Positions 13,919-44,217 of a stretch of 46,564 nt of DNA are shown here, piece by piece (position 1 is the stretch's first letter; each line of letters starts with the position of its first letter). Below the pieces are notes generated by a model, which did no database searches, was not told the DNA's origin, and was given only the letters and a program-made list of their open reading frames with translations. The position numbers and the translations under genes were made by a program. Source of the DNA: Anaerococcus sp. AGMB09787 (GTDB lineage Bacteria > Bacillota > Clostridia > Tissierellales > Peptoniphilaceae). The stretch spans positions 1-46,564 of the forward strand of contig NZ_JAKZEY010000006.1 in NCBI RefSeq assembly GCF_022808955.1, in the 5' to 3' direction.

Positions 13919-14090
13919 TCGCAAAATTTTCTAAAATGGTTTAATTACAAGCTATAGAGAGGATAAAAAATGGCTACTGCTACTCAAATGGTACTGGAAG
14001 TAAAAAAGAATAAATTGAATAATAGTTCCAAATGGTTTGCATGAGGACAAAAATTAGACCGTAGTTTGAAGCTGCGGCCTTATTTTTTAG
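13897..14090 (+). repeat. Left copy of the guaA-end direct repeat (candidate attL) with terminator
   Basis: The 34 bp at 13897-13930, covering the guaA stop codon, match 33434-33467 at 32 positions. Similarity continues at lower identity to about 14080. The best-kept later parts are TACTCAAATGGT, AATAATAGTTCCA and TTAGACCGTAG. This is what site-specific integration at the guaA 3' end leaves behind. Inside the repeat a stem AGACCGTAG (14056-14064) with CTGCGGCCT (14072-14080), one mismatch and a T-rich tail is the guaA terminator. Confidence 0.75.
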
Positions 14091-20466: not shown

Positions 20467-20469
20467 AAA

Positions 20470-21552: not shown

Positions 21553-21581
21553 CAGTTGATTTTATTTTAGAGGATGAATAT

Positions 21582-22610
21582 ATGATTAAGATAACAAAAT
21601 ATAATACTGATGTAGTAAAAGAAATAAGAATGTGTGCGTTAGAAAAACGACTCAATATATTAATAGGATCAGGCTGCTCTTCGGAAGCGATGCCACTTAT
21701 GTCAAAATATAGTGATATTGATTTGAAAGATAGAAATGAAAAGATGATTAAAGATATTATCCATCTTAGCAAAATATCAATTTTTAAATCTAAATTTTTA
21801 ACGAAACATAAGAGCCTGGATATAGTAGAAAAAATAATTTATACACAAAATTCATATAAAAATTTTATTTACTCTATAATAAATATACTTAATCTTTCTA
21901 ACTCTAGACAAGTTCCAAGGACAACTAATATTTTTACAACTAATTATGATTTGTTTATAGAAAATGCTGTTAATAATTTACAGAGTCACAGTAGATTCGT
22001 TTTTAATGATGGTGCTAGTGGTTATTTCGAAAGAATTCTTAATTCAAGTAATTATAATCAAGTAGTTGCATATAAAGGAATAAACGATAATTATATCATG
22101 GAGATACCGTCAATAAATTTGATAAAATCTCATGGATCAGTTAATTGGAAACGTGAAGGTGATAAGGTCATAGTATCTAATATGGTTTATGATAATCCCA
22201 TGATTGTTCCTCCAACTGGATATGAAGAACAAGAAACTTTTATTAATAACTACTTTCATGATATGCTTAGAATATTTCAAATAGAACTAGATAAACCACA
22301 AAGTGTTTTAATAATTGTTGGATTTTCTTTTCAAGATAAACATATAGCCAAAATGGTTAAAAGAGCCCTACGAAATAGAGAGCTGATAGTTTATATATTT
22401 GTTTACGAAGGTGATGGAAAAAATATAATTGATAATTTAGAAGTAACAGATATACCACCAAATTTAAAATTAATACTGACAGATAATATATTTTCTACGG
22501 AATATATTAAATCAGAAAATGATATTAAATTAACTTTAGATAATCTGTCAGAATTATTATCTAATCCCGATATTCAAATAAATATTGAAGATGAAAAGGA
22601 TGAGAATTAA
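21582..22610 (+). CDS. SIR2-like NADase/nuclease subunit of a SIR2-HerA defence pair
   Basis: This 342-residue protein has a Sir2-like Rossmann core: LIGSGCSS at 27-34 (the NAD-binding glycine loop), TTNYD at 119-123 and SHGS at 183-186 (catalytic-type His184), then IIVGFSFQDKHI. SIR2 proteins next to HerA ATPases form large complexes that stop phage by nuclease and/or NAD-depleting activity. Here herA begins at the base after this stop, a strict two-gene unit. The start at 21582 has GAGGATG upstream. The C-terminal about 60 residues are an acidic helical tail ending EDEKDEN, possibly a contact surface. The gene sits immediately downstream of the HpaII system. Confidence 0.85.
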   Translation: MIKITKYNTDVVKEIRMCALEKRLNILIGSGCSSEAMPLMSKYSDIDLKDRNEKMIKDIIHLSKISIFKSKFLTKHKSLDIVEKIIYTQNSYKNFIYSIINILNLSNSRQVPRTTNIFTTNYDLFIENAVNNLQSHSRFVFNDGASGYFERILNSSNYNQVVAYKGINDNYIMEIPSINLIKSHGSVNWKREGDKVIVSNMVYDNPMIVPPTGYEEQETFINNYFHDMLRIFQIELDKPQSVLIIVGFSFQDKHIAKMVKRALRNRELIVYIFVYEGDGKNIIDNLEVTDIPPNLKLILTDNIFSTEYIKSENDIKLTLDNLSELLSNPDIQINIEDEKDEN

Positions 22611-24455
22611 ATGGAAAGTAGTAAGGGAAAATTATTAGGTGTAATAGTTGGAGTAGAAGGTGATGAGGCAGAAGTAGCTATGTATAGCATGTCTAATGAT
22701 ACTACTTTCTTATGGGATGGAGATATTTTAATAGGTCCCAAAATAGGTGCTCTTTTAACTATATATCAAGATGATATAAAAATAATTGCAAGTGTATCGA
22801 AAGAAAAAGTAATGGACAATAAAAATACTGTTAATAGCATAGAGTTTGACAATAGATATAGTAAAGATTCTATTAATAGAATTCTTTTACTAAAAGTAAA
22901 AGGTATAATTGAAAATAAACAATTCTTAGTGACCAGCAAATATGTTCCTATGATAGGAAACGAGGTATCAATAACGAGTAAATATGATTTAAATACTGTG
23001 TATGGATTAAGTATCGAAGAACCTTACATAAATATAGGAAGATCAATTTTAGAAGACATGCCTATAAAATTATCAATAAATAAATTTTTTGCATCTCATA
23101 TTGGTATATTCGGTAATACAGGAAGTGGAAAATCTAATACATTACATAAGCTTTATCTTGAATTATTTAGGACTGATTATATGAATTTTATTTCAAGAAA
23201 ATCAAAGTTTTTTGTAATAGATTTTAATGGTGAGTATTCATCAGAGAATATGTTTGGTGTTGATGAAGAAAATAGGAGGATTTTTGATATAAATACAAGG
23301 ATTGGGATGGATAAGAAGTTCCCAGTTACTAAAGAGTATTTATTTGACCCAGATGTATTAGCACTTTTATTTGATGCGCGTCCTGCAACACAAGTACCTT
23401 TCTTAAGAACTTCAATTAATATTTATAAAAAAGATATAAAAGATGAATCGGATTTTGCGAAAATGGAAATTGGGTTATTAATAAAAATATTGGAGACTTT
23501 TAGAACGAGTGGCATAGAAGCTGTTAATAATTGGGTAGATGCATGTGAGAAGACTACTGTTGATAAAAATTTATTGAGTGGATTAAAAAGTTTTCAAAGT
23601 AGGTTAGACTATGGAAATGCTAAATTTGAGAGTGAGAATGGGCGAATATTAATTTCAAATAATAAATTAACTGAGTTTGGAAAAGAGTATTTTAAGATAG
23701 AAGAGTTGGAAGAAGGATTACAACAATTTTATGGAAATTCAAACTTTTTAACGAGATTAAGGTCATTTTTAGAATTTCAAAAAGTTTATGTAACCTCATG
23801 GAAGTCGACTAATATTGAATATATTAATCCTCTATTCAAAAGAATAGAGTCTGCATTTAACGCTTTGGATAAGGTGATTATAGTAAAAGATAATATAAAT
23901 GATGAGTTTAAAACTTTAAATATTATTTCTCTATTAAATGCAAATGTAGAAATAACTAGATTAATACCAATGCTATTATCAAAAATGATTTATGATCAGC
24001 ATAAGTACATCCAAAATAATAAAAAAAGAGAAAATACAGTACATTTAATAATTGATGAAGCACATAATATATTAAATGATTCTATAAAAAACTTGGGTGA
24101 TGATTGGCAAGACTATCGACTATCCATTTTTGAAGAAATAATAAAAGAGGGACGAAAATTTGGATTTTTCGTAACTATAGCTAGTCAAAGACCTGCTGAT
24201 ATATCACAAACCATCACTTCTCAATTGCATAATTTTTTTATTCATAGGTTAGTAAACGAAAAAGACTTAAGGATGCTAGAAAATACTATGCCTACTCTTG
24301 ATAAAAGTTCTTATAAAAAGATTCCTATGTTAGGAAAAGGAGAAGCTGTAATAACGGGAAATGCACTAAGTATACCATTGTTTATAAAAGTTGATAAAGA
24401 GGAGACTATAAGACCCAATAGTGATGACATAATACTTACAGACATATGGAAATAA
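22611..24455 (+). CDS. HerA-like hexameric ATPase of the SIR2-HerA pair
   Basis: This 614-residue ATPase of the HerA/FtsK (DUF87) type has an N-terminal beta-barrel (HAS-barrel-like) over about 1-150. Walker A is GNTGSGKSN at 168-176, Walker B is HLIIDEAHNI at about 480, and TIASQRPADIS is a sensor/arginine region. HerA ATPases form hexameric rings that pump or unwind DNA, and in defence pairs they assemble with the SIR2 partner. The ATG directly follows the sir2 TAA, with AAAGGATGAG in the end of sir2 as ribosome-binding site. No nurA is nearby, which argues for defence rather than the archaeal end-resection complex. Confidence 0.88.
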   Translation: MESSKGKLLGVIVGVEGDEAEVAMYSMSNDTTFLWDGDILIGPKIGALLTIYQDDIKIIASVSKEKVMDNKNTVNSIEFDNRYSKDSINRILLLKVKGIIENKQFLVTSKYVPMIGNEVSITSKYDLNTVYGLSIEEPYINIGRSILEDMPIKLSINKFFASHIGIFGNTGSGKSNTLHKLYLELFRTDYMNFISRKSKFFVIDFNGEYSSENMFGVDEENRRIFDINTRIGMDKKFPVTKEYLFDPDVLALLFDARPATQVPFLRTSINIYKKDIKDESDFAKMEIGLLIKILETFRTSGIEAVNNWVDACEKTTVDKNLLSGLKSFQSRLDYGNAKFESENGRILISNNKLTEFGKEYFKIEELEEGLQQFYGNSNFLTRLRSFLEFQKVYVTSWKSTNIEYINPLFKRIESAFNALDKVIIVKDNINDEFKTLNIISLLNANVEITRLIPMLLSKMIYDQHKYIQNNKKRENTVHLIIDEAHNILNDSIKNLGDDWQDYRLSIFEEIIKEGRKFGFFVTIASQRPADISQTITSQLHNFFIHRLVNEKDLRMLENTMPTLDKSSYKKIPMLGKGEAVITGNALSIPLFIKVDKEETIRPNSDDIILTDIWK

Positions 24456-24469
24456 ATAATTATAATTTT

Positions 24470-24602
24470 TTCTGCACTCGGACTTGGGTTGGACTAAGAA
24501 TCTGATAATTTCCTATAACTAGGTGGATTTAGTGATTCAAGAAAAATTATAATGTAGTATTTTGAATGGTTTTGTAAAAATCGGAAATTTGAAAAGTAAG
24601 AA
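24470..24602 (+). repeat. Intergenic repeat, copy A
   Basis: About 135 bp directly after herA. It aligns with copy C at 26375-26522, sharing GACTA, AATCTGA, TCCTATAA, TGGATTT, TAGTATTTTGAATGGTTT and the ATCGGA to TTTG-AAAAG block; identity is roughly three quarters by eye. It is not coding and has no obvious terminal inverted repeats. Confidence 0.65.
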
Positions 24603-24625
24603 CTGCAAAAGATATACTTTGCTTT

Positions 24626-24727
24626 ATGTATTTACTTAATGACATGCATGTAATCGCACATCTTGGTAATATTAGAGAAGAATTGAACAAATGGTGTGAT
24701 GAAATAAAGAATGAGTATTTTTTATAA
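24626..24727 (+). CDS. 33-residue ORF between repeats A and B, possible gene remnant
   Basis: The short frame opens MYLLNDMHVIAHLGNIREEL and ends KWCDEIKNEYFL. It has protein-like composition but no clear ribosome-binding site. It may be the 3' scrap of a gene deleted by recombination between repeats, or chance. No family is recognised. Confidence 0.25.
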   Translation: MYLLNDMHVIAHLGNIREELNKWCDEIKNEYFL

Positions 24728-24730
24728 AAT

Positions 24731-24868
24731 TCTGGAACTGGAACTGGGAAAATTTTTCAAAAATACACTTAAATGGAATGAATTTTCTATCACGAGATAA
24801 ACTGAAAACCTGTATTTTGGATGTTTTTGAATACAGCGAACATTATAAAAAGAAAGAGGGAGTAGGAC
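24731..24868 (+). repeat. Intergenic repeat, copy B
   Basis: A more diverged copy. CTGGAACTGGAACTGGGA matches the G-rich start of copy C (CTGGTACTGGGACTGGGA). The end, with TGTATTTTGGATG-TTTT, AGCGAAC and AAGAAAGAGGGAGTAGGA, matches the end of copy C. It lies 85 bp upstream of the second SIR2 gene. Confidence 0.5.
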
Positions 24869-24952
24869 TAGTAAATAGAAGAAAGTTAGTAAAAAATTAT
24901 TACTAGTATTTTTATAAAATTGATGTAAATGAAGAGAATAGGAGGATAAAGT

Positions 24953-26308
24953 TTGAATGTGTATGAACCTTGTGAATGTATGATTTGTAAAAATAATAAA
25001 AATTTTGATATGCCTGAAGAGATTATTGAGTCCGTTTTGAAAAACAATTTAGTTCTTTTTTGTGGTACAGGTATAAGCACAGAGTCAAAATCTGTTTTCC
25101 CTGAATCATTTTACACAAGTGTTTTACGTGAAATAGAAGAAAAGACAAATAATAAAGTTGATTTAGAAACCAGTTTTTCTATGCTAATGAGTTTATATAT
25201 TGATACATTTCCCAATGGTCGTAGGAAATTGCTAAATAAAATCAAAGAAAAATTTGATTTCATAGATTCTTTTCCTCAATTATTAAAAGCAGCTACTAGT
25301 TTTCATAGAGAAGTTGCTGCAAATCCTTTCATTGAAACGATAATTACAACAAATTGGGATACATATTTTGAAGATTATTGTGATTGTACTCCCGTAATTA
25401 ATGATACTGATGTTACTTTGTGGAATGTATTTAAAAAAAGAGTATTTAAAATACATGGATCAATTAATAATGTTGGGTCAATAGTAGCTACCGAAAAGGA
25501 TTATGAGGAATCGTATAGTAGACTCTCTAGCGAATTAATAGGAGATAGGCTAAAAACTATTCTGGCAAGTAGTACTGTTGTCTTTATTGGTTTTTCCTTT
25601 GGAGATGAGGATCTTAATAGGTTGTTAGATATATTATCCGAAAAGATGGGGGATTTTAGCAATCAATTTTATTTAGTCACAATTGATGAAAAATGGAAAG
25701 TAAATGTAGACTCAAGAGTAATCCCAATTATTACTGATGGAACATATTTTATTCACCAATTAAACAATATATTAATAGCAGAAGGGCGACTTGTTTCAAG
25801 TGATATTTATGATTATGCAGAAGAGCTTTTGTATTTCATTAAAAAAGAGCATGTAAAGCTTTTTGAATCAAATACTTATCGAGACGAGATTAAAGATTTT
25901 CCTGAATTACTATTATCAATAGCTTATCAAGATGCATTTATTCATGCTTTAGAGAGATGTGTTGCGCATAGAAGTGATGGAGAATATTTGATTCCTGGTT
26001 ACTTTCAGCCTAAAATTCAATCATACGAGAGTTATTATGAAAAGCGTATATCAGAAGAAAATTACGATCAAGCGTTCTATAATATGGGATATTGTGATGG
26101 TTTGCTATCGCTATTATTATTTGTTAACAATCCAGAAGAAGCAAAGATACCTCCATTATTTATATATGAAGAGAACTACTTTGAAACAAAAGATGATCTT
26201 TTTAAATATATATCAGAGAATAGAAATAAAAAACACTTTGAATATTGTTCAGAAAAAGTACAAAACATGAATGATTTAGTTCCTCATTTTATGCCTTGGT
26301 TTATTTAA
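24953..26308 (+). CDS. Stand-alone SIR2-domain protein with unknown C-terminal domain
   Basis: This 451-residue protein has a SIR2-like core at about 30-290: FCGTGIS at 36-42, TTNWD at 132-136, HGS at 168-170 (catalytic-type His168) and FIGFSFGDEDLNRLLD at 211 onward. The N-terminus carries a C-x-C-x2-C cluster (Cys7, Cys9, Cys12), which could bind metal. Residues about 290-451 form a mostly helical, Tyr/Phe-rich domain that matches nothing recognised; it may be a sensor or effector partner. The start is a TTG at 24953 preceded by GGAGG at 7-nt distance; no better ATG lies near. Single-gene SIR2 proteins often act as abortive-infection NADases. It is flanked by copies of the 135-bp repeat. 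Confidence 0.75.
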   Translation: MNVYEPCECMICKNNKNFDMPEEIIESVLKNNLVLFCGTGISTESKSVFPESFYTSVLREIEEKTNNKVDLETSFSMLMSLYIDTFPNGRRKLLNKIKEKFDFIDSFPQLLKAATSFHREVAANPFIETIITTNWDTYFEDYCDCTPVINDTDVTLWNVFKKRVFKIHGSINNVGSIVATEKDYEESYSRLSSELIGDRLKTILASSTVVFIGFSFGDEDLNRLLDILSEKMGDFSNQFYLVTIDEKWKVNVDSRVIPIITDGTYFIHQLNNILIAEGRLVSSDIYDYAEELLYFIKKEHVKLFESNTYRDEIKDFPELLLSIAYQDAFIHALERCVAHRSDGEYLIPGYFQPKIQSYESYYEKRISEENYDQAFYNMGYCDGLLSLLLFVNNPEEAKIPPLFIYEENYFETKDDLFKYISENRNKKHFEYCSEKVQNMNDLVPHFMPWFI

Positions 26309-30780: not shown

Positions 30781-31043
30781 ATAAAATTATAAATTATAAA
30801 ATAATAGAAAAAACTAGTAGGACTTATTAGGATTTAAGAGAGTAGACGATTGGTGAAAGTCTATATCCTATATGTGTTGAATATCATTTTTCTCATGTAA
30901 ATCTGAAATAATAGTAAGATTTGCCGCTATGGTAGGCGTTATCTAGAACCGGCATTTAATTGATGCTTGAGAGCTTATTATAATAAGAAAAAAAGGTGGT
31001 AACGCGGTAAATTCGTCCTTTGTCGAAAGACAAAGGATTTTTT
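30781..31043 (+). ncRNA. T-box leader, probably isoleucine-responsive, with terminator
   Basis: The T-box core GGTGGTAACGCGG is at 30995-31007. It is followed by the terminator TCCTTTGTC (31016-31024) with GACAAAGGA (31029-31037), a GAAA loop and six T. Stem I sequence lies at about 30825-30960, with GAATATCA in the likely specifier loop giving ATC (Ile) at 30883-30885. A CTC triplet nearby at 30892 is a less well placed alternative. Uncharged tRNA-Ile would favour the antiterminator and expression of ilvBN. The specifier call needs folding; the T-box itself is sure. Confidence 0.92.
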
Positions 31044-33433: not shown

Positions 33434-33617
33434 AGGAATTATTGAGTGAGAATAATCGCAAAATTTTGTGAAATGTCTCAGTATTAATCTAGAAAATATA
33501 TACAAGTTACTTTTACTCAAATGGTTCTCATAGAAAAATATAATAAACTAAATAATAGTTCCAGGTGGTTTACATTTGGACAAAAAATTAGACCGTAGTC
33601 TTAGCCTGCGGTCTTTT
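33434..33617 (+). repeat. Right copy of the guaA-end direct repeat (candidate attR) with terminator
   Basis: 33434-33467 matches the guaA 3' end (13897-13930) at 32 of 34 positions, including GAATAATCGCAAAATTTT. Similarity continues to the hairpin AGACCGTAG (33590-33598) with CTGCGGTCT (33606-33614) and T-run. The two mismatches in the core would change a TGGGAA to TGAGAA if read as guaA. This copy should be the remains of the original chromosomal guaA end and its terminator. Confidence 0.75.
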
Positions 33618-34566: not shown

Positions 34567-34722
34567 AATTCACCTCATTTTATTTATAACCATTTTTACT
34601 TTATTAAAACTTAGTTAAGGATATCTTTGATTTTTGGAGAAGAGGTATGACAGTTAATGATTAAAAATTCAGGTTTTTAATTATTTTTCAAGAGTTTTTT
34701 TATTATCAAAGTAAAATTGGCA

Positions 34723-34750
34723 TTGAAATCACAAAAATTTGTGATATAAT
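34723..34750 (+). promoter_or_regulatory. Promoter of the aro operon with an embedded palindrome
   Basis: TTGAAA at 34723-34728 and TATAAT at 34745-34750 have a 16-nt spacer. The spacer is filled by the inverted repeat ATCACAAAAATTTGTGAT (34728-34745; 8-bp arms, AA centre), which a dimeric repressor could use as operator. Transcription would start near 34757, just ahead of the leader peptide. Confidence 0.75.
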
Positions 34751-34770
34751 TACAAGCAAAGGAGATAAAG

Positions 34771-34863
34771 ATGTTCTTAAGTATTAATTTTAAAAATGCA
34801 TACTTTTATTATTACTTTACTAGCATATTTAGTAAGGCTATTTCTGGTGTGCAAAATACTTAA
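34771..34863 (+). CDS. Phe/Tyr-rich leader peptide of the aro operon
   Basis: This 30-residue ORF starts at an ATG with AAAGGAG 6 nt upstream. Nine of 30 residues are Phe or Tyr, including the run YFYYYF at positions 11-16 (codons 34801-34818). The TAA at 34861 is 20 nt before a terminator hairpin, and aroF starts 101 nt after the TAA. This is the organisation of a ribosome-mediated attenuator for aromatic amino acid synthesis: ribosomes short of charged tRNA-Tyr or tRNA-Phe would stall in the run and prevent terminator formation. No family match is claimed; the case rests on composition, ribosome-binding site, promoter and position. Confidence 0.8.
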   Translation: MFLSINFKNAYFYYYFTSIFSKAISGVQNT

Positions 34864-34913
34864 AGAATTTATCTTTTAGTTTTAGCTTCCTGGATTAGCC
34901 AGGGAGCTTTTTT
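34815..34913 (+). promoter_or_regulatory. Attenuator: alternative hairpins and intrinsic terminator
   Basis: The terminator is AGCTTCCTGG (34884-34893) with CCAGGGAGCT (34899-34908), one G-U pair, loop ATTAG, then six T. A possible pause hairpin is CTTTACT (34815-34821) with AGTAAGG (34831-34837). Possible antiterminator pairings are TTTCTGG (34841-34847) with CCAGGGA (34899-34905), which would take the 3' arm of the terminator, or GGCTA (34836-34840) with TAGCC (34896-34900). These segments lie downstream of the YFYYYF codons and inside the leader ORF. Confidence 0.7.
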
Positions 34914-34964
34914 ATTACCATTGAACTTTAGCGGTTAAAAGCGATAAATTATTTAGGAGGATTT

Positions 34965-35975
34965 ATGATTGTTAAGTTAAGAAAAGATGTAAGTGAAGAA
35001 AGTTTATCTAAGTTTATTAAGACTATCAAGGATTTGGGGCTTAGCCCATCTGATTTGTCTTCTGGCAATAGTGAGAAGTTGATAGGTCTAATAGGGGATA
35101 CTGCCAAGTTAGATATTAATAATTTTAGGAAGATTGATATTGTAGAGGATGTTATTAGGATTCAAGAGCCATACAAGAAGGCTAATAGGAAGTTCCATCC
35201 AGAGGACACTGTGGTTGAGCTTGCTAATGGTGTAAAGATTGGTGGGGGTAATTTTCAAATTATGGCAGGACCATGTTCTGTCGAGAATGAAGAGCAGATA
35301 ATAGAAGTTGCGAAAGCTGTAAAGGAGGCAGGAGCTACAATCCTAAGGGGAGGAGCCTTCAAGCCAAGGACTTCGCCATATTCTTTCCAAGGTCTTGGTA
35401 AAGAGGGAATAGATTTGTTGTTGAAAGCAAAGAAAGCCACAGGCCTACCTATAGTAACTGAGATTATGGAGATTAGCCAACTTAAATATTTTGAAGATGT
35501 TGATATGCTCCAAGTCGGCGCAAGGAATATGCAAAATTTTGACTTGCTAAAGGCAGTAGGTGCTACGGACAAGCCAGTTCTTCTTAAGAGGGGACTTTCT
35601 GCAACTTATGAAGAATTGCTCATGAGTGCCGAGTACATTATGGCAAGTGGCAATTCCAATGTAGTTTTATGTGAGAGAGGGATAAGAACTTTTGAAACAG
35701 AAACAAGGAATACCTTGGATATTACTGCTATACCTTACCTCAAGGAAAAAACCCACTTGCCAGTTATAATCGACCCTTCCCATGCTGCAGGAGCTGCCAA
35801 GTTTGTTAGACCACTTTCCCTAGCAGGAGTAGGGGCAGGGGCAGATGGCCTCATGATTGAAGTCCACAATGACCCATCCAAGGCCCTAAGTGATGGCCCT
35901 CAAGCTTTAAGACCTCAAGAATTTGATGAGGTAGCCAGAAAGGTATTTTCCCTAAGAAAGGCTATGGAGGCTTAG
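34965..35975 (+). CDS. aroF: 3-deoxy-7-phosphoheptulonate synthase, type I-beta
   Basis: This 336-residue enzyme joins PEP and erythrose 4-phosphate in the first step of the shikimate pathway. Residues 1-75 form a ferredoxin-like regulatory domain, the part that gives Tyr/Phe feedback inhibition in Thermotoga-type enzymes. The barrel carries IMAGPCSVENEEQI, LRGGAFKPRTSPYSFQGLG, QVGARNMQNF, KRGLSAT and IIDPSHAAG. It is the first gene after the Phe/Tyr attenuator, with TTAGGAGG before the ATG. tyrA starts at the base after the stop. Both enzyme feedback and attenuation would therefore respond to the end products. Confidence 0.95.
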   Translation: MIVKLRKDVSEESLSKFIKTIKDLGLSPSDLSSGNSEKLIGLIGDTAKLDINNFRKIDIVEDVIRIQEPYKKANRKFHPEDTVVELANGVKIGGGNFQIMAGPCSVENEEQIIEVAKAVKEAGATILRGGAFKPRTSPYSFQGLGKEGIDLLLKAKKATGLPIVTEIMEISQLKYFEDVDMLQVGARNMQNFDLLKAVGATDKPVLLKRGLSATYEELLMSAEYIMASGNSNVVLCERGIRTFETETRNTLDITAIPYLKEKTHLPVIIDPSHAAGAAKFVRPLSLAGVGAGADGLMIEVHNDPSKALSDGPQALRPQEFDEVARKVFSLRKAMEA

Positions 35976-36797
35976 GTGAAAATCGGGATTATTGGCCTGG
36001 GCCTTATGGGTGGATCCTTTGCCAAGGCTATCAAGAAATACACATCCCATGAAGTCTATGGCTACGACATTATGGAAAGGTCTCTAGGTCAAGCTGTAAG
36101 GCAAAAGGCCATAGATGGGGTCCTAGATCTAGACGACCTTGCTAAGATGGACCTTACAATCCTTGCCATGACTCCTACTAAGGTCCTTAACTTTGTAGAA
36201 GATAATAGGCAATTAAGTAATTATGTTATGGACCTATGTGGTATAAAAAGAGTCATCTCTCCTAGGCTATGTGATTTGGCCAGGGAAAATAATTTTACCT
36301 ACATAGGAGCCCACCCCATGGCAGGGAGGGAAGTTGGTGGATTTGAAAATAGCTGTGAGGACTTGTATAGGGGGAGATATATTATCATTATAAGGCATGG
36401 GGACCTTCCTAAGTGGATTATAGGCATGCTTAATGGTATAGGACTAAAGATACAGTATTCTACTGATGATACCCAAGATAGGATCATAGCCTACACTTCC
36501 CAGCTCTGCCACATAGCATCCAATGCCCTAGTGAAAACTCCCACCAGCCTAGACCATGAGGGTTATTCAGCTGATAGCCTATTAGATTTAACCAGGGTTG
36601 CCACCATAAATGAAGAGATGTGGACAGAATTATTCTTTGCCAACAAGGACTACCTCCTAGAGGAACTTACAAATTATATTATCCAACTCAAAAAATACCA
36701 AGATGTCCTAGTAAGGGATGATGAGGAAGGGATGAGAGAGTTACTTAAGGAAGGTAAGGATATTAAGGCAAAGATGTATCCTAGAAAGAGTAAATAA
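35976..36797 (+). CDS. tyrA: Prephenate dehydrogenase (TyrA)
   Basis: This 273-residue monofunctional TyrA converts prephenate (or arogenate) towards tyrosine with NAD(P). It has the Rossmann motif IGIIGLGLMGGSFAKAIKK, an MDLCGIK segment and the active-site stretch GAHPMAGREVGG, where the His is catalytic in the family. There is no chorismate mutase or ACT domain. The start is a GTG immediately after the aroF stop, with GGAGG in the last aroF codons. aroB follows 1 nt after the stop. Confidence 0.92.
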   Translation: MKIGIIGLGLMGGSFAKAIKKYTSHEVYGYDIMERSLGQAVRQKAIDGVLDLDDLAKMDLTILAMTPTKVLNFVEDNRQLSNYVMDLCGIKRVISPRLCDLARENNFTYIGAHPMAGREVGGFENSCEDLYRGRYIIIIRHGDLPKWIIGMLNGIGLKIQYSTDDTQDRIIAYTSQLCHIASNALVKTPTSLDHEGYSADSLLDLTRVATINEEMWTELFFANKDYLLEELTNYIIQLKKYQDVLVRDDEEGMRELLKEGKDIKAKMYPRKSK

Positions 36798-36798
36798 A

Positions 36799-37860
36799 AT
36801 GAAAGAAATATTAGTAAAGGTATCTAAGCCATACAAGATTTATATAGACCATGGTGTAATTGACAAAATATCAGACCTTGTCGGAGTAGATAGGTCAAGG
36901 CGATTTGTAGTTTTGACCGATAAGAATGTAGATAGCTTATACTTTGAGACTTTAGCAAAAGCTTTATCAAAAACAAAATCAGATATTTTTAAATTTGTCA
37001 TCGAGCCAGGAGAAGATTCTAAGTCTTTTGACAACTTGATTAGCCTCTTAGAATTTATGGCAGATAAGGATATTAATTCCAAGGATGTACTCATAGCCTT
37101 TGGGGGAGGAGTTGTTGGAGATTTGGGAGGCTTTGCTGCAGCTATCTACAGGCGAGGGATAGACTATATCCAAGTCCCTACCACTCTCCTTGCCCAAGTC
37201 GACTCATCAGTAGGGGGTAAAACTGCTATCAACTTAAGTAGGGCGAAAAACATGGTAGGCTCCTTTAACCAACCGAGGGCAGTATTTTGTGATAGGCAAT
37301 TTCTCCATACCCTAGCAGATGATGAATTTGCTTGTGGGATGGGGGAAGTTATCAAGTATGGGATTTTGTTTGATAGGGACTTATTCCTTAAGCTTATGGA
37401 TAGGGGAAGGCTAGACGAGAACTTGGAGCCTATCATTGCTAGGTGTATAAGTTTAAAGAGAGATATAGTCGAAGAAGACGAGTTTGACACTGGCAAGCGT
37501 CAACTACTAAACCTAGGTCATAGCCTAGCCCATTCTATCGAGGTCATCTCAAATCACACCATAAAGCATGGAAAAGCCGTAGCAATAGGAATCTATACAG
37601 TAGCTTTGGGATGTGCTAAGAGTGGCTTACTTCCTAGTGGGGACCTAGAATTAATAAAAGAAGTTATCCAAACCCATAACCTACCCTTTAAGCTTCCTTA
37701 CAAGCTATCAGATATGATGGAGATTATAAGAAAAGATAAGAAAAGAAGGGGAGATTATATAAATGAGATTCTCATTAGAAAGATAGGAGATACTTACTTA
37801 GAACAATTTGACTTTGATGGGTTAGAAGAATTTTTTAAAAATGGAGTAAGTCATGCTTAA
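36799..37860 (+). CDS. aroB: 3-dehydroquinate synthase
   Basis: This 353-residue NAD- and metal-dependent enzyme makes the first carbocycle of the pathway. Motifs are EPGEDSKSFDN, AFGGGVVGDLGGFAAA, RGIDYIQVPTTLLAQVDSSV, GGKTAINL, and the metal ligand region LLNLGHSLAHSIE with IKHGKAVAIG. The length is typical. The start is 1 nt after tyrA, and aroA overlaps its end by 8 nt. Confidence 0.96.
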   Translation: MKEILVKVSKPYKIYIDHGVIDKISDLVGVDRSRRFVVLTDKNVDSLYFETLAKALSKTKSDIFKFVIEPGEDSKSFDNLISLLEFMADKDINSKDVLIAFGGGVVGDLGGFAAAIYRRGIDYIQVPTTLLAQVDSSVGGKTAINLSRAKNMVGSFNQPRAVFCDRQFLHTLADDEFACGMGEVIKYGILFDRDLFLKLMDRGRLDENLEPIIARCISLKRDIVEEDEFDTGKRQLLNLGHSLAHSIEVISNHTIKHGKAVAIGIYTVALGCAKSGLLPSGDLELIKEVIQTHNLPFKLPYKLSDMMEIIRKDKKRRGDYINEILIRKIGDTYLEQFDFDGLEEFFKNGVSHA

Positions 37861-39100
37861 AGTTAGACCATCGACTATAAAAGGAGAAGTTCAGTCTATA
37901 TCCTCCAAATCATACGTCCATAGGGCATTAATTTGTGCAAGTCTTGCAGAAGGTAAGTCAAAGATTTTCTTTAACAAATCATCGCTTGATATAGAGGCAA
38001 CCATATCCTGCCTGAGAGAGCTTGGAGCAGATATTATAGCTGGAGAAGATTTTCTTGAAGTAAGTCCCATCAAAAACCGTCATGCTATACCAAGGCTTGA
38101 TTGTAAGGAATCTGGATCTACCCTTAGATTTCTCCTGCCACTCGCTTCTTCCTTATATAACAAGTGCTATTTTATGGGAGAAGGGAGACTTCCTGATAGG
38201 CCTATCAAGGACTTGGTGGATATAATGAAGGCAAACAAGGTTATATTTTCGGCTAGTAAACTCCCCTTCATGACAGAAAATAAATTTGACTTTTCATATG
38301 CCAAGATTAGGGCTGATATTAGCTCCCAATATATAAGTGGGCTACTCTTTGCAGGTCTAAGTCTTGATCACCTAAGTGAGATAGTACCTACTGGCAAGCT
38401 TGTTTCTAAGTCCTACCTTGAGCTTACTATGGATATGATAAAGAAGTTTTCGGGCGATGTAGTCTATGAAGATGATAGATTTAAGGTCTATCCGACTATA
38501 CTCCAAGGTCTAGACTATAGAGCTGAGGGAGATTGGTCCAATGCTAGCTTCTTCTTGGTGGCTGGAGCCTTAAATAAGGAAGTCCTTGTCAAGGGATTAA
38601 ATCCTAAGAGCCTCCAAGGGGATAGGGCAATAATTGATATCCTCAAGGACTATGGGGCAAGGCTAGAGATAAGGGACGAATACATAAGGGTAGGGGCAGG
38701 AGAGAGAAATAATCTCATCATAGATATTAACGAGATACCAGATATGTTGCCAGCCCTATCTATTCTAGCTTCGGGAGCTGACGGTGGCAAGTCTACATTC
38801 TACAATGCAAAAAGGCTTAGGATCAAGGAAAGTGACAGGCTATTCGCCACCTGTCAACTAATTAATAACCTAGGGGGCAGGGCTATAGAAAAAGAAGATT
38901 CCCTAGAAGTTTATGGGACAGGTGGCCTTAGGGGAGGAAGGGTTGATTCCCACAATGACCACAGAATAGCCATGGCTGCTGTTATTGGTTCACTTATAGC
39001 TAAAAAGCCAATCGAGATAAAAAATCATAGGGCAGTTAACAAATCTTACCCAGATTTTTATGAGGACTTTGTAAGAATAGGAGGACAAATTGACATCTAG
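37853..39100 (+). CDS. aroA: 3-phosphoshikimate 1-carboxyvinyltransferase (EPSP synthase)
   Basis: This 415-residue enzyme transfers enolpyruvyl from PEP to shikimate 3-phosphate. The Lys/Ser start SSKSYVHRALICASLAEG, the segment SGSTLRFLLPLASSL, the region QYISGLLFAGLSL, KESDRL, and NDHRIAMAAVIGSL are all in order. The first glycine-rich loop lacks the NGT of plant and E. coli enzymes, as expected from a Gram-positive class II type. It overlaps aroB by 8 nt and aroC by 11 nt. Confidence 0.95.
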   Translation: MLKVRPSTIKGEVQSISSKSYVHRALICASLAEGKSKIFFNKSSLDIEATISCLRELGADIIAGEDFLEVSPIKNRHAIPRLDCKESGSTLRFLLPLASSLYNKCYFMGEGRLPDRPIKDLVDIMKANKVIFSASKLPFMTENKFDFSYAKIRADISSQYISGLLFAGLSLDHLSEIVPTGKLVSKSYLELTMDMIKKFSGDVVYEDDRFKVYPTILQGLDYRAEGDWSNASFFLVAGALNKEVLVKGLNPKSLQGDRAIIDILKDYGARLEIRDEYIRVGAGERNNLIIDINEIPDMLPALSILASGADGGKSTFYNAKRLRIKESDRLFATCQLINNLGGRAIEKEDSLEVYGTGGLRGGRVDSHNDHRIAMAAVIGSLIAKKPIEIKNHRAVNKSYPDFYEDFVRIGGQIDI

Positions 39101-40181
39101 TTTCGGTCAAAAACTAAAAATTACCATATTTGGACACTCCCATGGCAATGCTATCGGTCTTGTAGCTGATGGCTTTCCGTTGGGAACAAAGATCGATATG
39201 GACAAATTAAATGAATTTATGAAGAGAAGGGCGCCAGGATCAAGTAAATATACTACAAGGAGAAGGGAAGACGACCAGGTAGAATTTATAGCAGGAGTAG
39301 AAGGAGACAGAATAGTGGCAAATACAATATGTGCCATTATCAAAAATAAAGACACTATATCAAGCGACTATGAATCCTTTAGGGACATCCCTAGGCCATC
39401 CCACGCAGACTATGTATCCAATATCAAATACCAGGGCCTTCTCGATATGAGGGGGTCTGGTCCCTTTTCTGCCCGTCTTACAGCACCTTTGTGCATAGGT
39501 GGGGCCATAGCCCTACAGATCCTAGAAGAAAGAGGAATAGAAGTCAGATCTCATTTAAAGCAAGTCGGGGGAATACATGATGTAGGAATCGACTATGTAA
39601 ATCCAGACATGGAAGGACTAAGCTCTTGTAGGCAAAAGGCCATACCTGTGATAGACCCTGATGCAGAAGAGAAAATCAAAAGCTTGTTGGAAGAAGTAAA
39701 AGCTAACCAAGACTCTGTAGGTGGGGAGGTAGAATGCGTAGTAACTGGCCTTCCTGTAGGTCTAGGCGAGCCCAACTACAAGTCTTTCGAATCCCAAATA
39801 GCCTCCCTTGTCTATGCAGTGCCTGGTAGTAGAGCTATCTCCTTTGGTAGGGGGTTCGAAGCAGCGACTATGCTAGGCTCAGACCACAACGATGAATTCC
39901 AAATCCTTGATGGGAAGGTTGTAACCAAGACTAACAATGCAGGAGGACTTGTAGGAGGGATAACAAATGGCATGCCCCTTATCTTTAGTGTAGTTATGAA
40001 GCCTACTGCATCTATTTCTAAGGAACAATCTTCTATTTCCATGAGGGATATGAAGGAAGCAAAGCTTAGGATAAGGGGTAGGCACGATCCCTGCATAGCT
40101 CTAAGGGCCCTACCTATAATGGAAGCCCTAGCAGCCCTAGTAATTTTAGATTTTATGGAGATAAGTAATGGAAAGTTTTAG
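39090..40181 (+). CDS. aroC: Chorismate synthase
   Basis: This 363-residue FMN-dependent enzyme makes chorismate from EPSP. Signatures are SSFGQKLKITIFGHSHGNAI, RRAPGSSKYTTRR, SGPFSARLTAPLCIGGAIAL, GGEVECVVTGLPVG and TNNAGGLVGGITNGMPL. The start is a TTG at 39090 with AGGAGG 5 nt upstream, which gives the usual MTSSFG N-terminus; it overlaps aroA. The C-terminus overlaps the pheA start by 14 nt. Confidence 0.96.
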   Translation: MTSSFGQKLKITIFGHSHGNAIGLVADGFPLGTKIDMDKLNEFMKRRAPGSSKYTTRRREDDQVEFIAGVEGDRIVANTICAIIKNKDTISSDYESFRDIPRPSHADYVSNIKYQGLLDMRGSGPFSARLTAPLCIGGAIALQILEERGIEVRSHLKQVGGIHDVGIDYVNPDMEGLSSCRQKAIPVIDPDAEEKIKSLLEEVKANQDSVGGEVECVVTGLPVGLGEPNYKSFESQIASLVYAVPGSRAISFGRGFEAATMLGSDHNDEFQILDGKVVTKTNNAGGLVGGITNGMPLIFSVVMKPTASISKEQSSISMRDMKEAKLRIRGRHDPCIALRALPIMEALAALVILDFMEISNGKF

Positions 40182-41295
40182 AAGAAAAATAGATGCCATT
40201 GACGATAAAATAGCTGATCTTTTTGCCAAAAGATTAGAACTTTCTAGACAAATTGGTAAAGAAAAACAAAAAAACGCCCAAAATATTAACGATTATAATA
40301 GAGAAAAAGCTATAATAGCAAGGCTTGCCAAGGAATTTCCAGAGGATAAGGATATACTAAACAGACTCTATCAAACTATATTTTCCATATCAAAGAGCCT
40401 CCAAAGAGATTTAACTAGGACTTGTGATTATGAAGATTTCTTATTGCAATCATTGTCAAATACCGACTTCACCTCTGCTACCAAGGCAAAGGTTGGAGTC
40501 CAAGGCAGCGAGGGGTCCTATGGCTATCTTGCTGCCAAAGAAATTTTTGCAAATCCATCTATCAATTATTATGAGTCCTTTGAAGATATTTTTGCAAGTG
40601 TAAATAAGGGAGAGTGTGAATTTGGGGTCTTGCCCATAGAAAATTCCATCTATGGAGAAGTAAATGAAGTCTATGATTTGCTAGATAAAAATAATTCCTA
40701 TATAGTAGCTGATTTTAAACTTGAAATAAACCACTACCTCCTAGGTAAAGAATCTTCCAACATCTCTGAAATAAAAGAAGTCTTATCCCACTACCAGGCC
40801 CTAGGTCAATGTAGGGATTATTTGTCAAAAATTCCTAATATCAAAATCACAAGCTCCCAAAACACAGCCTTAGCTGCCAAATACTTAGCTCTTAGCGAGA
40901 GGGATGACCTAGCCTGTATAGGGTCTAAGGAATGTGCTGACCTCTATGGGCTAAAGATCTTAGATGAAAATATCCAAAATAACCAGGCCAACTATACAAG
41001 GTTTATAGTCATTAAAAAAGACATGGAAGTCTACAAGGATGCGAGGATTATATCAATTATAATAGAAGTTGCCAACAAGCCAGGAGCTTTATTTGACCTT
41101 ATAGGTAAATTTGCAGCTCTAGGGCTAAACCTAATTAGAATCGAATCAAGACCAATAGCTGGTAGCAAGTTTGACTTTAGATTTTACTTGAACTTTGAGG
41201 GGAATATCAAGGATAACAAGACTAGAAAGCTCCTAAGCGAGCTTCATAATTCTAATGAATACTTTTCCTTCTTGGGAAATTATGTGGAGGTATAA
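40168..41295 (+). CDS. pheA: Bifunctional chorismate mutase-prephenate dehydratase
   Basis: This 375-residue P-protein has three parts. Residues 1-85 are an AroQ-class chorismate mutase (FRRKIDAIDDKIADLFAKRL), 110-290 a prephenate dehydratase (KVGVQGSEGSYGYLAAKEIF, FGVLPIENSIYGEV, NYTRFIVI), and 295-375 an ACT domain (VANKPGALFDLIGKFAALGL, then ESRP) that senses phenylalanine. It supplies the only chorismate mutase in this operon, so tyrA also depends on its product prephenate. The start overlaps aroC and the next gene begins immediately after its stop. Confidence 0.95.
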   Translation: MESFRRKIDAIDDKIADLFAKRLELSRQIGKEKQKNAQNINDYNREKAIIARLAKEFPEDKDILNRLYQTIFSISKSLQRDLTRTCDYEDFLLQSLSNTDFTSATKAKVGVQGSEGSYGYLAAKEIFANPSINYYESFEDIFASVNKGECEFGVLPIENSIYGEVNEVYDLLDKNNSYIVADFKLEINHYLLGKESSNISEIKEVLSHYQALGQCRDYLSKIPNIKITSSQNTALAAKYLALSERDDLACIGSKECADLYGLKILDENIQNNQANYTRFIVIKKDMEVYKDARIISIIIEVANKPGALFDLIGKFAALGLNLIRIESRPIAGSKFDFRFYLNFEGNIKDNKTRKLLSELHNSNEYFSFLGNYVEV

Positions 41296-42513
41296 ATGAA
41301 ATTTGGTTTATTGGGCAAGGACCTACCCCATTCTTTTTCAAAAACAATTCATGAGCAAATAGCAGATTATGCCTACGACCTTTACGAAAAAAACATCGAG
41401 GACCTAGAAGACTTTATAAAATCAGATATAAGTGGCTTTAATGTAACAATTCCCTATAAGGAAGAAGTTATTAAATATCTTGATTATCTAAGTCCTAGGG
41501 CAAAAAGAATAGGGGCAGTCAATACTATAATCAAGAGAGACGGGAAGATATTGGGCTACAATACTGACTATTTTGGCTTTGATTACCTCCTACAGTCCCT
41601 AGGTGAAAATTTTACAAGAGCCATAATTCTAGGTGATGGAGCAACCTCAAAGACAATAGGTATAGTATTAGCTGATAAAAAAATATCCTATGTCAAATTA
41701 TCAAGGAAAAAATCTCCATACTATGCCGACCTGGACAAATTCAATGATGCAGACCTTCTCATAAATGCGACCCCTGTGGGTATGTATCCAAATAATGGTA
41801 AGTCTTTAATTGATTTAGACAAACTCCCTAAACTAAAAGCAGTAGTAGATGTAATCTACAATCCCTATATAACAGAAATCTTATTTGAAGCGAGAGATAG
41901 GAAAATTAAATATGCAAATGGTCTAAAAATGCTAATTGGCCAGGCCCTAGAAGCTTCATCAATCTTTCAAAATAAGGACTTAGATTATAAAATGATTGAA
42001 GAAATCGAGGCCAATATTCTAAAAAATCGCAACATAGTCCTAATCGGCATGCCAGGATCTGGCAAAAGCTCTATAGGTAGCAAGCTTTCTGAAAAAACTG
42101 GTAAAAATTTTGTCGACACTGATGCTGAGATAGAAAAAATTGCTAATATGCCTATAAGTGAAATCTTTGAAAAATGTGGTGAGGAGAAATTTAGAGACCT
42201 TGAGAAGTCTATAATAAATAAAGTAGGCAAGGAGACCAACCAAATCATAGCCACTGGTGGTGGAGTAGTAAAGGATCCTGCAAATTTTAGACCTCTCAAG
42301 CAAAATTCTTTAATATATTTCATCAAAAGAAACTTGTCTGATCTTGACCGTGAGGGTAGACCCTTATCCACAAATTATAGAGCAATCGAGGGTATTTGGC
42401 AAGAAAGAAAAGACTTCTACCAACTATTTTCAGATAAGAAAATACCAAATATCAGCATTGATCAAAGCGTAGAATTGATAATAGGAGATTTTTATGAAAA
42501 TACTTTTAATTAA
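41296..42513 (+). CDS. aroE: Fused shikimate dehydrogenase-shikimate kinase
   Basis: This 405-residue protein has two domains. Residues 1-235 are AroE: FGLLGKDLPHSFSKTIHEQI, SGFNVTIPYKEEVI (catalytic Lys) and IGAVNTI, with GYNTDYFGF. Residues 240-405 are AroK: NIVLIGMPGSGKSSIGSKLS with Walker A, VDTDAEIEK, and ATGGGVV. Together they turn 3-dehydroshikimate into shikimate 3-phosphate, two consecutive steps (NADPH then ATP). The adenine-binding glycine loop of AroE reads GDGATSK rather than the more usual GAGGA-like motif. aroQ starts inside the last 20 nt. Confidence 0.93.
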   Translation: MKFGLLGKDLPHSFSKTIHEQIADYAYDLYEKNIEDLEDFIKSDISGFNVTIPYKEEVIKYLDYLSPRAKRIGAVNTIIKRDGKILGYNTDYFGFDYLLQSLGENFTRAIILGDGATSKTIGIVLADKKISYVKLSRKKSPYYADLDKFNDADLLINATPVGMYPNNGKSLIDLDKLPKLKAVVDVIYNPYITEILFEARDRKIKYANGLKMLIGQALEASSIFQNKDLDYKMIEEIEANILKNRNIVLIGMPGSGKSSIGSKLSEKTGKNFVDTDAEIEKIANMPISEIFEKCGEEKFRDLEKSIINKVGKETNQIIATGGGVVKDPANFRPLKQNSLIYFIKRNLSDLDREGRPLSTNYRAIEGIWQERKDFYQLFSDKKIPNISIDQSVELIIGDFYENTFN

Positions 42514-42925
42514 TGGACCAAATATAAATATGCTCGGTATCAGAGAAAAAGATTTATATGGCAAAAAAGACTACAAGCACCTCTTGGAAACAGTAGAATC
42601 TTATTGCAAAAAATTAGATATAGACCTAGAGACCTTCCAGTCCAACCACGAGGGAGCTATAGTGGATAAGATTCAAGAAGCTTACCAGAAATTTGACGGC
42701 ATAATAATAAATCCAGCAGCCTATACTCACACATCTATTGCAATATTAGATGCTTTGAAAGCAGTAGACCTACCTACTGTCGAAGTTCATATCACAGATA
42801 TAGACCAAAGAGAAGACTTTAGAAAAATATCCTATGTGTCCTTATTTGCTGAAAAAACTATCAAGGACAATGGTATAGAGGGATACTTGGAAGCTATTGA
42901 CTATCTTTTAGCTAAGAATATATAA
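42494..42925 (+). CDS. aroQ: 3-dehydroquinate dehydratase, type II
   Basis: This 143-residue small dodecameric-type enzyme makes 3-dehydroshikimate. Signatures are LLINGPNINMLGIRE, FQSNHEGAIVDKIQEAY, IINPAAYTHTSIAILDAL and VEVHITDIDQRE, with the catalytic Tyr and His in place. The length is typical. It overlaps the aroE-aroK gene by 20 nt and closes the tightly packed operon, which now covers all seven steps to chorismate. Confidence 0.95.
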   Translation: MKILLINGPNINMLGIREKDLYGKKDYKHLLETVESYCKKLDIDLETFQSNHEGAIVDKIQEAYQKFDGIIINPAAYTHTSIAILDALKAVDLPTVEVHITDIDQREDFRKISYVSLFAEKTIKDNGIEGYLEAIDYLLAKNI

Positions 42926-42993
42926 TAACTATAAAAGTACTAATCTATTACATATCTATAAATACCAAATAATATTTAGAAAAGGAGTTAATC

Positions 42994-44217
42994 ATGACAA
43001 TGACAATAAAATCAGCTACTTGGTCCAACGAGCCTGACCTTGCTTTTGATATGAAGAGAAAGGCAGAAGAAGCCTGCAAAATTTATGGTGATGATCAGGT
43101 GATTAATTCAGTTCTAGGAACCTTGGCTGATGATGAGGGAAGAATAATAGCCTTTCCTTCAGTATATAAGGCCTTAGACGAACTTAGTAAGGGGGAGATA
43201 GCAAGTTATGCTCCCATAGAAGGAGATAGAGAATACTTAGATAAGCTTATTGATATACTCTTTGATGACTATAAACCAGATGCCTATATAAGAGCAGTAT
43301 CAAGTCCTGGGGGAACTGGAGCAATAAGGTCTGCCTTGTGGAGCTATGTAGATAAGGGTGATCCTGTCCTATGTCACAACTATTGTTGGGGAGTATATAA
43401 AACCATGTGTCAAGAATTCTGCAGGGACTTTAGAACCTATGAATTTTTTAATGAGGACTTTTCCTTCAATATAGATGACTTGGCAGCAAGGCTTGATGAG
43501 GCATTAAGTGATAGGGATAGGACTGCCATAATAATCAATTCCCCTGCCAACAATCCAACGGGCTATTCCCTTAGTGATAGGGAGTGGGACCTAGTAATCG
43601 ACCTCCTAAAGGATAGGGCAAGGGATAAGGACAAAAAACTAACCCTCCTGGTAGATGTGGCCTACCTAGAGTATGCTGGCGATGGAAAAAGCCAAAGGGA
43701 ATTTTTCACAAAATTTACTAATCTTCCAGAAAATATTATGGTTGTAGTGTGCTTTTCTATGTCCAAGGCCTACACTGCCTATGGGATGAGGTGTGGGGCA
43801 GCTGTTGGAATTTCATCAAGCCAAAAGGCAATCGAGGACTTTGAGAATTCCTTTACCCACACAGCTAGGGCAAATTGGTCAAATGTAAACCACGCCCCAC
43901 AAAAAATCTTGGTAAAGCTTAGCCAAGGACAGGATTTAGAGGCATACAAAAAAGACCTGGAAGAAGCCAAGGATCTACTAACTAAAAGGGCAGAGGTCTT
44001 CATAAGGGAAGCTAGGCAAAATAATATCAGAACTATTCCCTACTTCGGAGGTTTCTTCGCCTTTATACCTACAGATAGGGCCTTTGAAATATCTGATAAA
44101 TTAGAAAAAGACCACATCTTTGTCTTGCCTCAATCCAAGGGACTAAGAATCGCCCTATGTAGGACTCCAGCGAGACTTATACCAGACCTCGTCCAAGGCA
44201 TAAAAAAATACCTCTAA
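42994..44217 (+). CDS. Class I aminotransferase, aspartate/aromatic type
   Basis: This 407-residue PLP enzyme of the aspartate/tyrosine aminotransferase group has the PLP-anchoring segment VCFSMSKAYTAYGMRCG (Lys in SMSK), SSPGGTGAIRSALWSYVD for cofactor phosphate, INSPANNPTGYSLSD and a C-terminal Arg region KGLRIALCRTPARL. After the aro operon its likely job is the last step to Tyr and Phe, although aspartate is also possible. It has its own AAAGGAG site 68 nt after aroQ. There is no terminator between them, so it may be read from the aro promoter. A clear terminator follows it. Confidence 0.85.
   Translation: MTMTIKSATWSNEPDLAFDMKRKAEEACKIYGDDQVINSVLGTLADDEGRIIAFPSVYKALDELSKGEIASYAPIEGDREYLDKLIDILFDDYKPDAYIRAVSSPGGTGAIRSALWSYVDKGDPVLCHNYCWGVYKTMCQEFCRDFRTYEFFNEDFSFNIDDLAARLDEALSDRDRTAIIINSPANNPTGYSLSDREWDLVIDLLKDRARDKDKKLTLLVDVAYLEYAGDGKSQREFFTKFTNLPENIMVVVCFSMSKAYTAYGMRCGAAVGISSSQKAIEDFENSFTHTARANWSNVNHAPQKILVKLSQGQDLEAYKKDLEEAKDLLTKRAEVFIREARQNNIRTIPYFGGFFAFIPTDRAFEISDKLEKDHIFVLPQSKGLRIALCRTPARLIPDLVQGIKKYL

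Follow-up and report, generated by a model that had tools for sequence, protein, structure and literature searches.

In Escherichia coli, the pheL-pheA and trpL-trp operons are preceded by leader peptides rich in the residue that is regulated, and the leader RNA can form 1:2, 2:3 and 3:4 pairings. In the Firmicutes, the textbook account has aromatic amino acid synthesis controlled by T-box, TRAP or a repressor. The transcript encoding the AroR peptide of the actinobacterium Corynebacterium glutamicum is reportedly leaderless. Attenuation by pheL and trpL is also described in PMC11802643, and the aroR leader of aroF in C. glutamicum (Neshat et al. 2014) is mentioned in PMC11802643, PMC4046766 and PMC3890552; attenuation has been reported under Phe limitation, with a response to Phe but not to Tyr (PMC11802643). 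The leader of aroF in Anaerococcus sp. AGMB09787, analysed here within a window of 46,564 nt (the whole stretch of DNA examined), resembles AroR in that an aromatic leader peptide, with F-Y-F in AroR, precedes a DAHP synthase gene. It differs in having a clear Shine-Dalgarno sequence (SD) and nine Phe/Tyr residues. With pheL and trpL it shares the logic of the mechanism; unlike them, it has the first step, the common pathway and both branches behind one leader.

Comparative surveys have brought further candidates. The legend of Fig. 6b in PMC6429828, which we take to be Stav et al. 2019, lists two uORF candidates that encode Phe and Tyr and adjoin shikimate genes, from an analysis whose five genomes include Clostridium novyi and Thermovirga lienii; as described, they may well belong to the same family as the leaders reported here. 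The uORFC-13-1 motif (Brewer et al. 2021, PMC8632094) likewise combines a Phe uORF, with at least one Phe codon, and a terminator, always upstream of aroF, and has another base-paired substructure supported by comparison, but its 24 sequences come only from Acholeplasma and environmental DNA. For aroF of E. coli and Shewanella, an attenuator sensing Tyr-tRNA has been proposed (Camakaris 1980, cited in PMC2659441 and PMC8632094); attenuation of aroF is common to both cases, but these are Proteobacteria and a proposal only. Ribosome-mediated attenuators of the Firmicutes, with other amino acids and other genes, include the Leu-rich peptide of ilv-leu in Staphylococcus aureus (Kaiser et al. 2018, PMC5794164) and the His leaders of hisZ and hisS in bacilli (Naville and Gautheret 2010, PMC2965389). 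A later survey of 50 genomes gives eight uORF candidates, and the accessible part of its main text has no mention of aroF. All of these comparisons are made by description, from the accessible portions of the sources.

With pheL, AroR and the Phe/Tyr uORFs beside shikimate genes, this kind of attenuator is already known. In the literature searched, figures and supplements apart, no account was found of its breadth, of the covarying helix described below or of its presence in Anaerococcus. Earlier comparative work on attenuation, said to be that of Vitreschak in 2004, may hold more. So may the comparative study of Lopatovskaya 2010, as it is cited.

The aroF leader and the operon behind it

A predicted promoter lies on the forward strand at 34723-34750, where a consensus scan matches 11 of 12 positions (-35 TTGAAA, a 16-nt spacer, and -10 TATAAT preceded by TG). 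It is followed by the strong SD AAGGAG (about 34759-34764, read from the sequence) and by an ORF of 30 codons plus TAA (34771-34863; ATG at 34771, TAA at 34861-34863), which encodes MFLSINFKNAYFYYYFTSIFSKAISGVQNT. Nine of its 30 residues are Phe or Tyr, and the conserved run YFYYYF (codons 11-16, 34801-34818) is the proposed stall site. An intrinsic terminator (34884-34913; a 10-bp stem, 34884-34893/34899-34908, and then a T run) stands between this ORF and aroF. All of these elements had been described in an earlier note on this DNA and were confirmed. The whole leader folds at -45.6 kcal/mol (z -4.97), which none of 200 shuffles equals, and the minimum free energy (MFE) structure of the free leader contains a 9-bp hairpin, 34815-34823 with 34829-34837, that encodes F-T-xxx-S-K-A. 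Four of the features looked for in an attenuator, namely an ORF with a ribosome-binding site, a run of Phe/Tyr codons, a terminator and a protector or pause helix (1:2) overlapping the control codons, are present in AGMB09787.

On the same strand follow aroF (3-deoxy-7-phosphoheptulonate (DAHP) synthase, 34965-35975; NF006421, E 1.6e-145, over cut-off), tyrA (prephenate dehydrogenase, 35976-36797; NF006307, E 3.6e-42, below the model cut-off), aroB (3-dehydroquinate synthase, 36799-37860; TIGR01357, over cut-off), aroA (EPSP synthase, 37853-39100; TIGR01356, over cut-off), aroC (chorismate synthase, 39090-40181; NF003793, over cut-off), a pheA-type chorismate mutase/prephenate dehydratase gene (40168-41295; NF007910, E 3.9e-65, below cut-off), an aroE-aroK fusion (shikimate dehydrogenase and shikimate kinase, 41296-42513; NF001319 at residues 3-245 and NF010553 at residues 245-401, both below cut-off) and aroQ (type II 3-dehydroquinate dehydratase, 42494-42925; NF003805 and TIGR01088, over cut-off). 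These eight genes are tightly packed. An aminotransferase gene (42994-44217, forward strand; best match NF006388, hypothetical, then NF006719, aromatic amino acid transaminase, E 1.2e-31, both below cut-off) lies 68 nt further on, and its membership of the operon is less sure because of this gap and of a promoter-like site (42897-42926) that the promoter scan places over the end of aroQ. Going by the profile-based gene names, four of the nine (aminotransferase counted) taken from models below their cut-off, the operon products are chorismate and the precursors of Phe and Tyr. The genome comprises 2.0 Mb in 53 contigs and is 98% complete.

Elsewhere in the window, two copies of SpR18_sRNA, an Rfam family whose name refers to Streptococcus, score 93 bits (13944-14075) and 88 bits (33477-33609), and each follows a gene end; they are the only matches in the genome, and none was found in 14 control genomes. 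A defence-like island (19423-26308) holds a type II methyltransferase with a restriction enzyme, a pair of SIR2 and HerA, and a second SIR2 protein weakly like PDC-S25/ThsA.

Conservation and breadth of aromatic leaders

Among 31 Anaerococcus genomes, AroF was matched in 14, at 15 places, ten of which, AGMB09787 included, hold orthologues of its aroF (64-100% identity). Each of the ten is preceded by a homologous leader of 29-33 codons with a GGAG-type SD, the aromatic run and the terminator, and the sole indel between the ORFs of AGMB09787 and its nearest relative (G019) is one whole codon, which leaves the frame intact. Homologous leaders that lacked the run or carried frameshifts had been named beforehand as evidence against an attenuator; the genus contains none among these loci. 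The five remaining copies (L012-L016), from five genomes, are a different paralogue, 55-58% identical over part of the length, and no aromatic leader was found before the frame start in any of them, that of L015 being a start that was not located. The upstream 420 nt are nearly identical, by eye, among L012, L013 and L016, which suggests recent transfer.

Beyond the genus, the 350 nt upstream of aroF were scanned for ORFs of 10-60 codons that follow an SD and have five or more aromatic residues among eight. Such a leader stands before 42 of 79 aroF genes in a named collection, 25 of 38 in an order-wide sample and 24 of 79 in a phylum-wide sample, as against 0.6, 0.45 and 1.1 in dinucleotide shuffles and none on the reverse strand in any of the three, which places the arrangement beyond chance. 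As a control, the region upstream of groES in the same order held no such ORF in 39 cases (40 fetched). The named sample consists of the best 80 loci among the matches listed, 79 of them with enough upstream DNA. For the order 40 regions were taken, 38 long enough, and for the phylum 80 (among the matches listed, near repeats thinned by hand), 79 long enough; both come from the top of the full-length matches listed, one per genome, with partial matches dropped. The samples overlap slightly: two leaders from the named collection occur again in the order-wide and phylum-wide samples, and a further two belong to the genus. The fractions should not be read as averages for the phylum, since the phylum leaders mostly stand before the aroF genes most similar to that of AGMB09787. 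The view that such control is unusual for low-GC Gram-positives finds no support, as the same arrangement precedes about one third to two thirds of the sampled aroF genes, in samples that lean toward genes like that of AGMB09787.

Carriers include Veillonella parvula, Miniphocaeibacter massiliensis, a Fretibacterium and a Flexilinea contig, the last two being metagenome assemblies in which misplacement of a contig is possible. We take Fretibacterium to belong to the Synergistota and Flexilinea to the Chloroflexota. In a plasmid collection, the best five of 113 records with a match were read. Subdoligranulum variabile and Ilyobacter polytropus have a leader with an SD and, by eye, a terminator; the leader of I. 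polytropus (Fusobacteriota), MASQNLTNWYFYYYFRN, is absent from the gene table of its record. Since ORFs of 20-50 codons are often left out of gene tables, aromatic leaders readily escape notice. Treponema saccharophilum adds, weakly, a record from the Spirochaetota, with an aromatic ORF that has no SD match and that an annotated hypothetical protein overlaps in another frame. The records of Acetoanaerobium and Collinsella showed no leader before aroF, and none was recognisable before aroF of Finegoldia magna (L058) or a Synergistaceae contig (L089). Rfam, run on 20 leaderless or weak loci of the named sample, returned nothing at the gathering threshold.

Folding of the leader RNA and the proposed switch

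Nine of the ten genus loci (two peptides identical) and the 42, 25 and 24 sampled leaders were pooled into 100, or 82 after removal of near-duplicates. A terminator follows 80 of the 82, at a median of 35 nt past the leader stop, compared with 1.1 of 82 in shuffled downstream DNA. Shuffles of synonymous codons that keep the peptide show selection on RNA folding in the leaders, with a mean z of -0.91, values below -1 in 37 of 82 and above +1 in three, and -2.08 in AGMB09787. Distant leaders share the motif F-[TAI]-xxx-[GS]-[KR]-[AV] near the C-terminus; its loose form, a small-residue/Lys-or-Arg tripeptide three to eight residues past an aromatic, is found in 50 of the 82. In 34 of these 50, pairing between the codons extends to 7 or 8 of the 8 positions, which in a few may be a chance effect of A and U runs; 24 of the 34 have a three-codon loop, mostly as RCUUURYY ... 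RRYARRGY.

For these 24 leaders, with the best placement taken for each, 94.8% of the cells of the helix are paired and three pairs have changes on both sides. This percentage is inflated because the rows were chosen for pairing, and the changes on both sides and the slid controls weigh more. Cells with double changes number 18, against a shuffled mean of 6.3 (0 of 500 shuffles), and the covariation is 0.357, against 0.232 when shuffled (0 of 500) and no more than 0.174 in the slid controls; taken by itself, the count of doubly changed pairs did not go beyond the shuffles (102 of 500). In AGMB09787 the covarying helix is the hairpin at 34815-34837, in register with the codons, so that the pause hairpin drawn in the earlier note is borne out by the free-leader MFE and by covariation alike. 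A covariance model of 79 positions (R1) mainly recovers its training members. Fifteen of 120 genomes of the family gave a hit, 13 of them before aroF (E up to 0.001), from ten training genomes and three new ones (G004, G027 and G017); the two weak hits (E 0.02 and 0.05) had no aroF among the surrounding large ORFs, and the training genome G003, which may not have been drawn, was not among the hits. In the phylum 8 of 398 genomes were hit, AGMB09787 and six more before aroF, with three new (G389, G376 and G486), and one weak hit elsewhere; the training genome G624 was not recovered. The model therefore has some specificity and little added reach.

Relatives preserve the ORF with its aromatic run, the pause hairpin and the terminator, all in the same order. 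On this comparative evidence, we consider it highly likely that the leader attenuates transcription in the ribosome-mediated manner of trp and phe, sensing the charging of Phe- and Tyr-tRNA. With both tRNAs ample, the ribosome would pass the aromatic codons, reach the stop codon at 34861 and cover region 2; the terminator (34884-34908) would then form, and transcription would end before aroF. With Phe- or Tyr-tRNA uncharged, the ribosome would stall within codons 11-16 and cover the 5' arm of the hairpin (34815-34823), thereby freeing region 2 (about 34829-34860) to pair with the start of the terminator, and the resulting antiterminator would let transcription run into aroF and the genes of the Phe and Tyr branches. 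Without translation, the leader is expected to fold into one long hairpin and the terminator to form.

Other explanations account for parts of these observations. Since AT-rich DNA yields some Phe/Tyr-rich ORFs, a chance ORF next to the terminator of the upstream gene, without any regulation, might be supposed; the shuffles, the reverse strand, groES and the terminator control all speak against this, the conservation at ten of ten genus loci refutes it, and we give it a very slight probability. A T-box or another direct tRNA sensor would be at home in a genome with 19 T-box matches, nine of them over cut-off, but at 34600-34970 the T-box model (RF00230) gave no match even at E 10, which largely refutes the idea and leaves its probability next to negligible. 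The strong fold of the whole leader and the covarying helix would also be expected of a riboswitch or a protein-binding leader in which the ORF is incidental. This seems very improbable, given that the ORF keeps its frame, SD and aromatic run and changes in length by whole codons, and that the Rfam scan of the AGMB09787 leader, curated leader models included, found nothing above cut-off. None of its ten weak hits (E 0.29 to 9.2) was named as a peptide leader, as we take the Rfam model Phe_leader to be.

The remaining explanation retains the peptide and changes its role. In peptide-sensing arrest, of which TnaC is the model, the nascent leader peptide would bind free Phe or Tyr in the ribosome tunnel and stall, and the recurrence of the C-terminal motif in distant leaders is what such a role would predict. 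However, the motif coincides codon for codon with the covarying helix, which explains its conservation, and 32 of the 82 leaders, for example MNKYFAYYYFAYYFVDHI, lack even the loose tripeptide. The property they have in common is their aromatic codons, although the leaders were selected for these. Peptide sensing thus appears unlikely, and attenuation through the charging of tRNA is the reading that we retain.

For that reading, the pairing that competes with the terminator is the point at which the earlier note had to be revised: a leader-peptide attenuator of the shikimate operon stands, whereas the specific competing pairing it drew (34841-34847 with 34899-34905) falls, together with the supposed rarity. 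By eye, that pairing can be drawn solely in AGMB09787 and G019; it was set aside, as UUUAUCA mismatches the terminator 3' arm in the other eight genus sequences. A better candidate for the antiterminator (2:3), weak in AGMB09787, may be AGGCUA at 34835-34840 with UAGCUU at 34883-34888, the latter overlapping the terminator 5' arm. It appears in the genus consensus fold (-2.8 kcal/mol) and is kept or nearly kept in the genus, and no covariation support was found for this pairing. In AGMB09787 its energy is -7.5 to -7.9 kcal/mol, that of the terminator -16.8, and it is the MFE solely when the ribosome stalls at codons 14-16; a stall at codons 12-13 favours another hairpin, which leaves the terminator arm free. 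When the transcript includes the 3' arm, the MFE is the terminator wherever the stall was placed.

The wider leader set was folded as the transcript up to the end of the terminator 5' arm, with ribosome-covered RNA removed. Mean sequestration of this arm is 0.59 in the stalled case, 0.41 in the free leader and 0.27 with the ribosome at the stop; shuffling the spacer lowers the stalled mean to 0.47. Stalling raises sequestration by more than 0.1 over the free leader in 51 of 80 leaders and leaves it lower in nine, and the stalled value exceeds the shuffled mean in 60 of 80, with at most one tenth of the shuffles reaching it in 30. When spacers were swapped among 49 loci (at least four of eight aromatic, close relatives included), pairing with the own arm came to -474.8 kcal/mol, against -370 (sd 14.6) when permuted (0 of 2000), a result partly confounded by base composition; the sequestration and longest-complement tests, unlike this one, use composition-keeping shuffles. 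The longest Watson-Crick complement between spacer and arm is at least 6 nt in 14 of 80 leaders against 6.3 when shuffled, a modest excess, and in V. parvula SKV38 eight nucleotides that complement the terminator arm perfectly overlap the 3' side of the pause helix. As a set, the leaders fit an antiterminator exclusive with both the 1:2 helix and the terminator. In AGMB09787 the signal is weak and does not reach significance on its own: sequestration is 0.55 with a stalled ribosome, 0.37 in the free leader and 0.39 on shuffling, and 20% of the shuffles reach the stalled value. The two further genus leaders examined show no gain on stalling (L004, 0.59 against 0.73 free; L006, 0.55 against 0.53), and L018 and L019 have no excess complementarity to their own terminator arm.

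Terminator 5' arms with GCAG occur in 18 of 80 leaders (e.g. L017, L028, L045 and L061), where 5.1 are expected by shuffling, and a UUUGCUGC-like sequence is seen by eye in several spacers. Together they are perhaps a conserved antiterminator core in part of the leader family.

Inheritance and sensing of the aromatic supply

On a tree of 91 AroF proteins (a quick, short search in which 33 of 88 inner branches are open), the presence of a leader takes 20 changes, compared with 29.9 for shuffled labels (minimum 24; 90 labelled rows, n=300), or 27.8 (minimum 21) with two genus rows kept. Among 44 leader bearers, the helix type, labelled by hand, takes 7 changes against 13.7 (minimum 9). Both counts lie below the shuffles; thus, leaders tend to travel with aroF, with many gains or losses. 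Anaerococcus shares the motif and the helix with its family, with Veillonella, with other Clostridia and with Fretibacterium, and the Flexilinea contig has both with a four-codon loop. A common origin of the helix-type leaders is likely from these comparisons. As to whether one ancestral aromatic attenuator was inherited with this type of aroF, rather than invented many times independently, we hold the chances to be even.

The residues of the leader may track what the cell makes, with Trp codons chiefly where trpA is present. No trpA was found in the AGMB09787 genome, at its 98% completeness, and its leader has no Trp codon. Counting Trp anywhere in the leader peptide, a Trp codon is found in 14 of 26 genomes with trpA over cut-off and in 3 of 33 without (p 0.0003); read the other way, trpA is present in 14 of 17 against 12 of 42 of the same 59 leader-bearing genomes. 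The association is seen at genus level (p 0.024) and not at family level (p 0.26). In AGMB09787, the T-box match before pheS scores 84.6 bits, short of the cut-off of 93, and the one before tyrS a weak 25.8 bits, so that the supply of Phe, and perhaps that of Tyr, is probably sensed in two ways in one cell.

Within the window, a T-box leader (30801-31023, 110.9 bits) stands directly before an ORF that by eye resembles ilvB; set beside the aroF leader, this would give two operons of one stretch two different tRNA-sensing systems. Elsewhere in the genome (L111, C52), a sub-cut-off T-box (81.5 bits) precedes a small membrane-like protein that has no NCBIfam hit and resembles a vitamin/tryptophan transporter, an identity that would be in keeping with the lack of trpA.

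In a genome where nine T-boxes pass the cut-off, control of the shikimate operon appears to fall to a translated leader, and leaders of this kind precede between half and two thirds of those sampled aroF genes that are nearer to the one in AGMB09787. A short aromatic ORF with a terminator before aroF is offered as a rule for annotation, and the leaders are a candidate new RNA family, unmatched by the copy of Rfam used. They also form a natural series, in which codon content can be compared with the end products of the pathway in each genome. Should the single ancestry be true, this would be among the most widely kept leader-peptide regulators. For Anaerococcus sp. AGMB09787, the leader is very probably a supply gauge, through which the genes of the shikimate operon are switched on when Phe or Tyr runs short.
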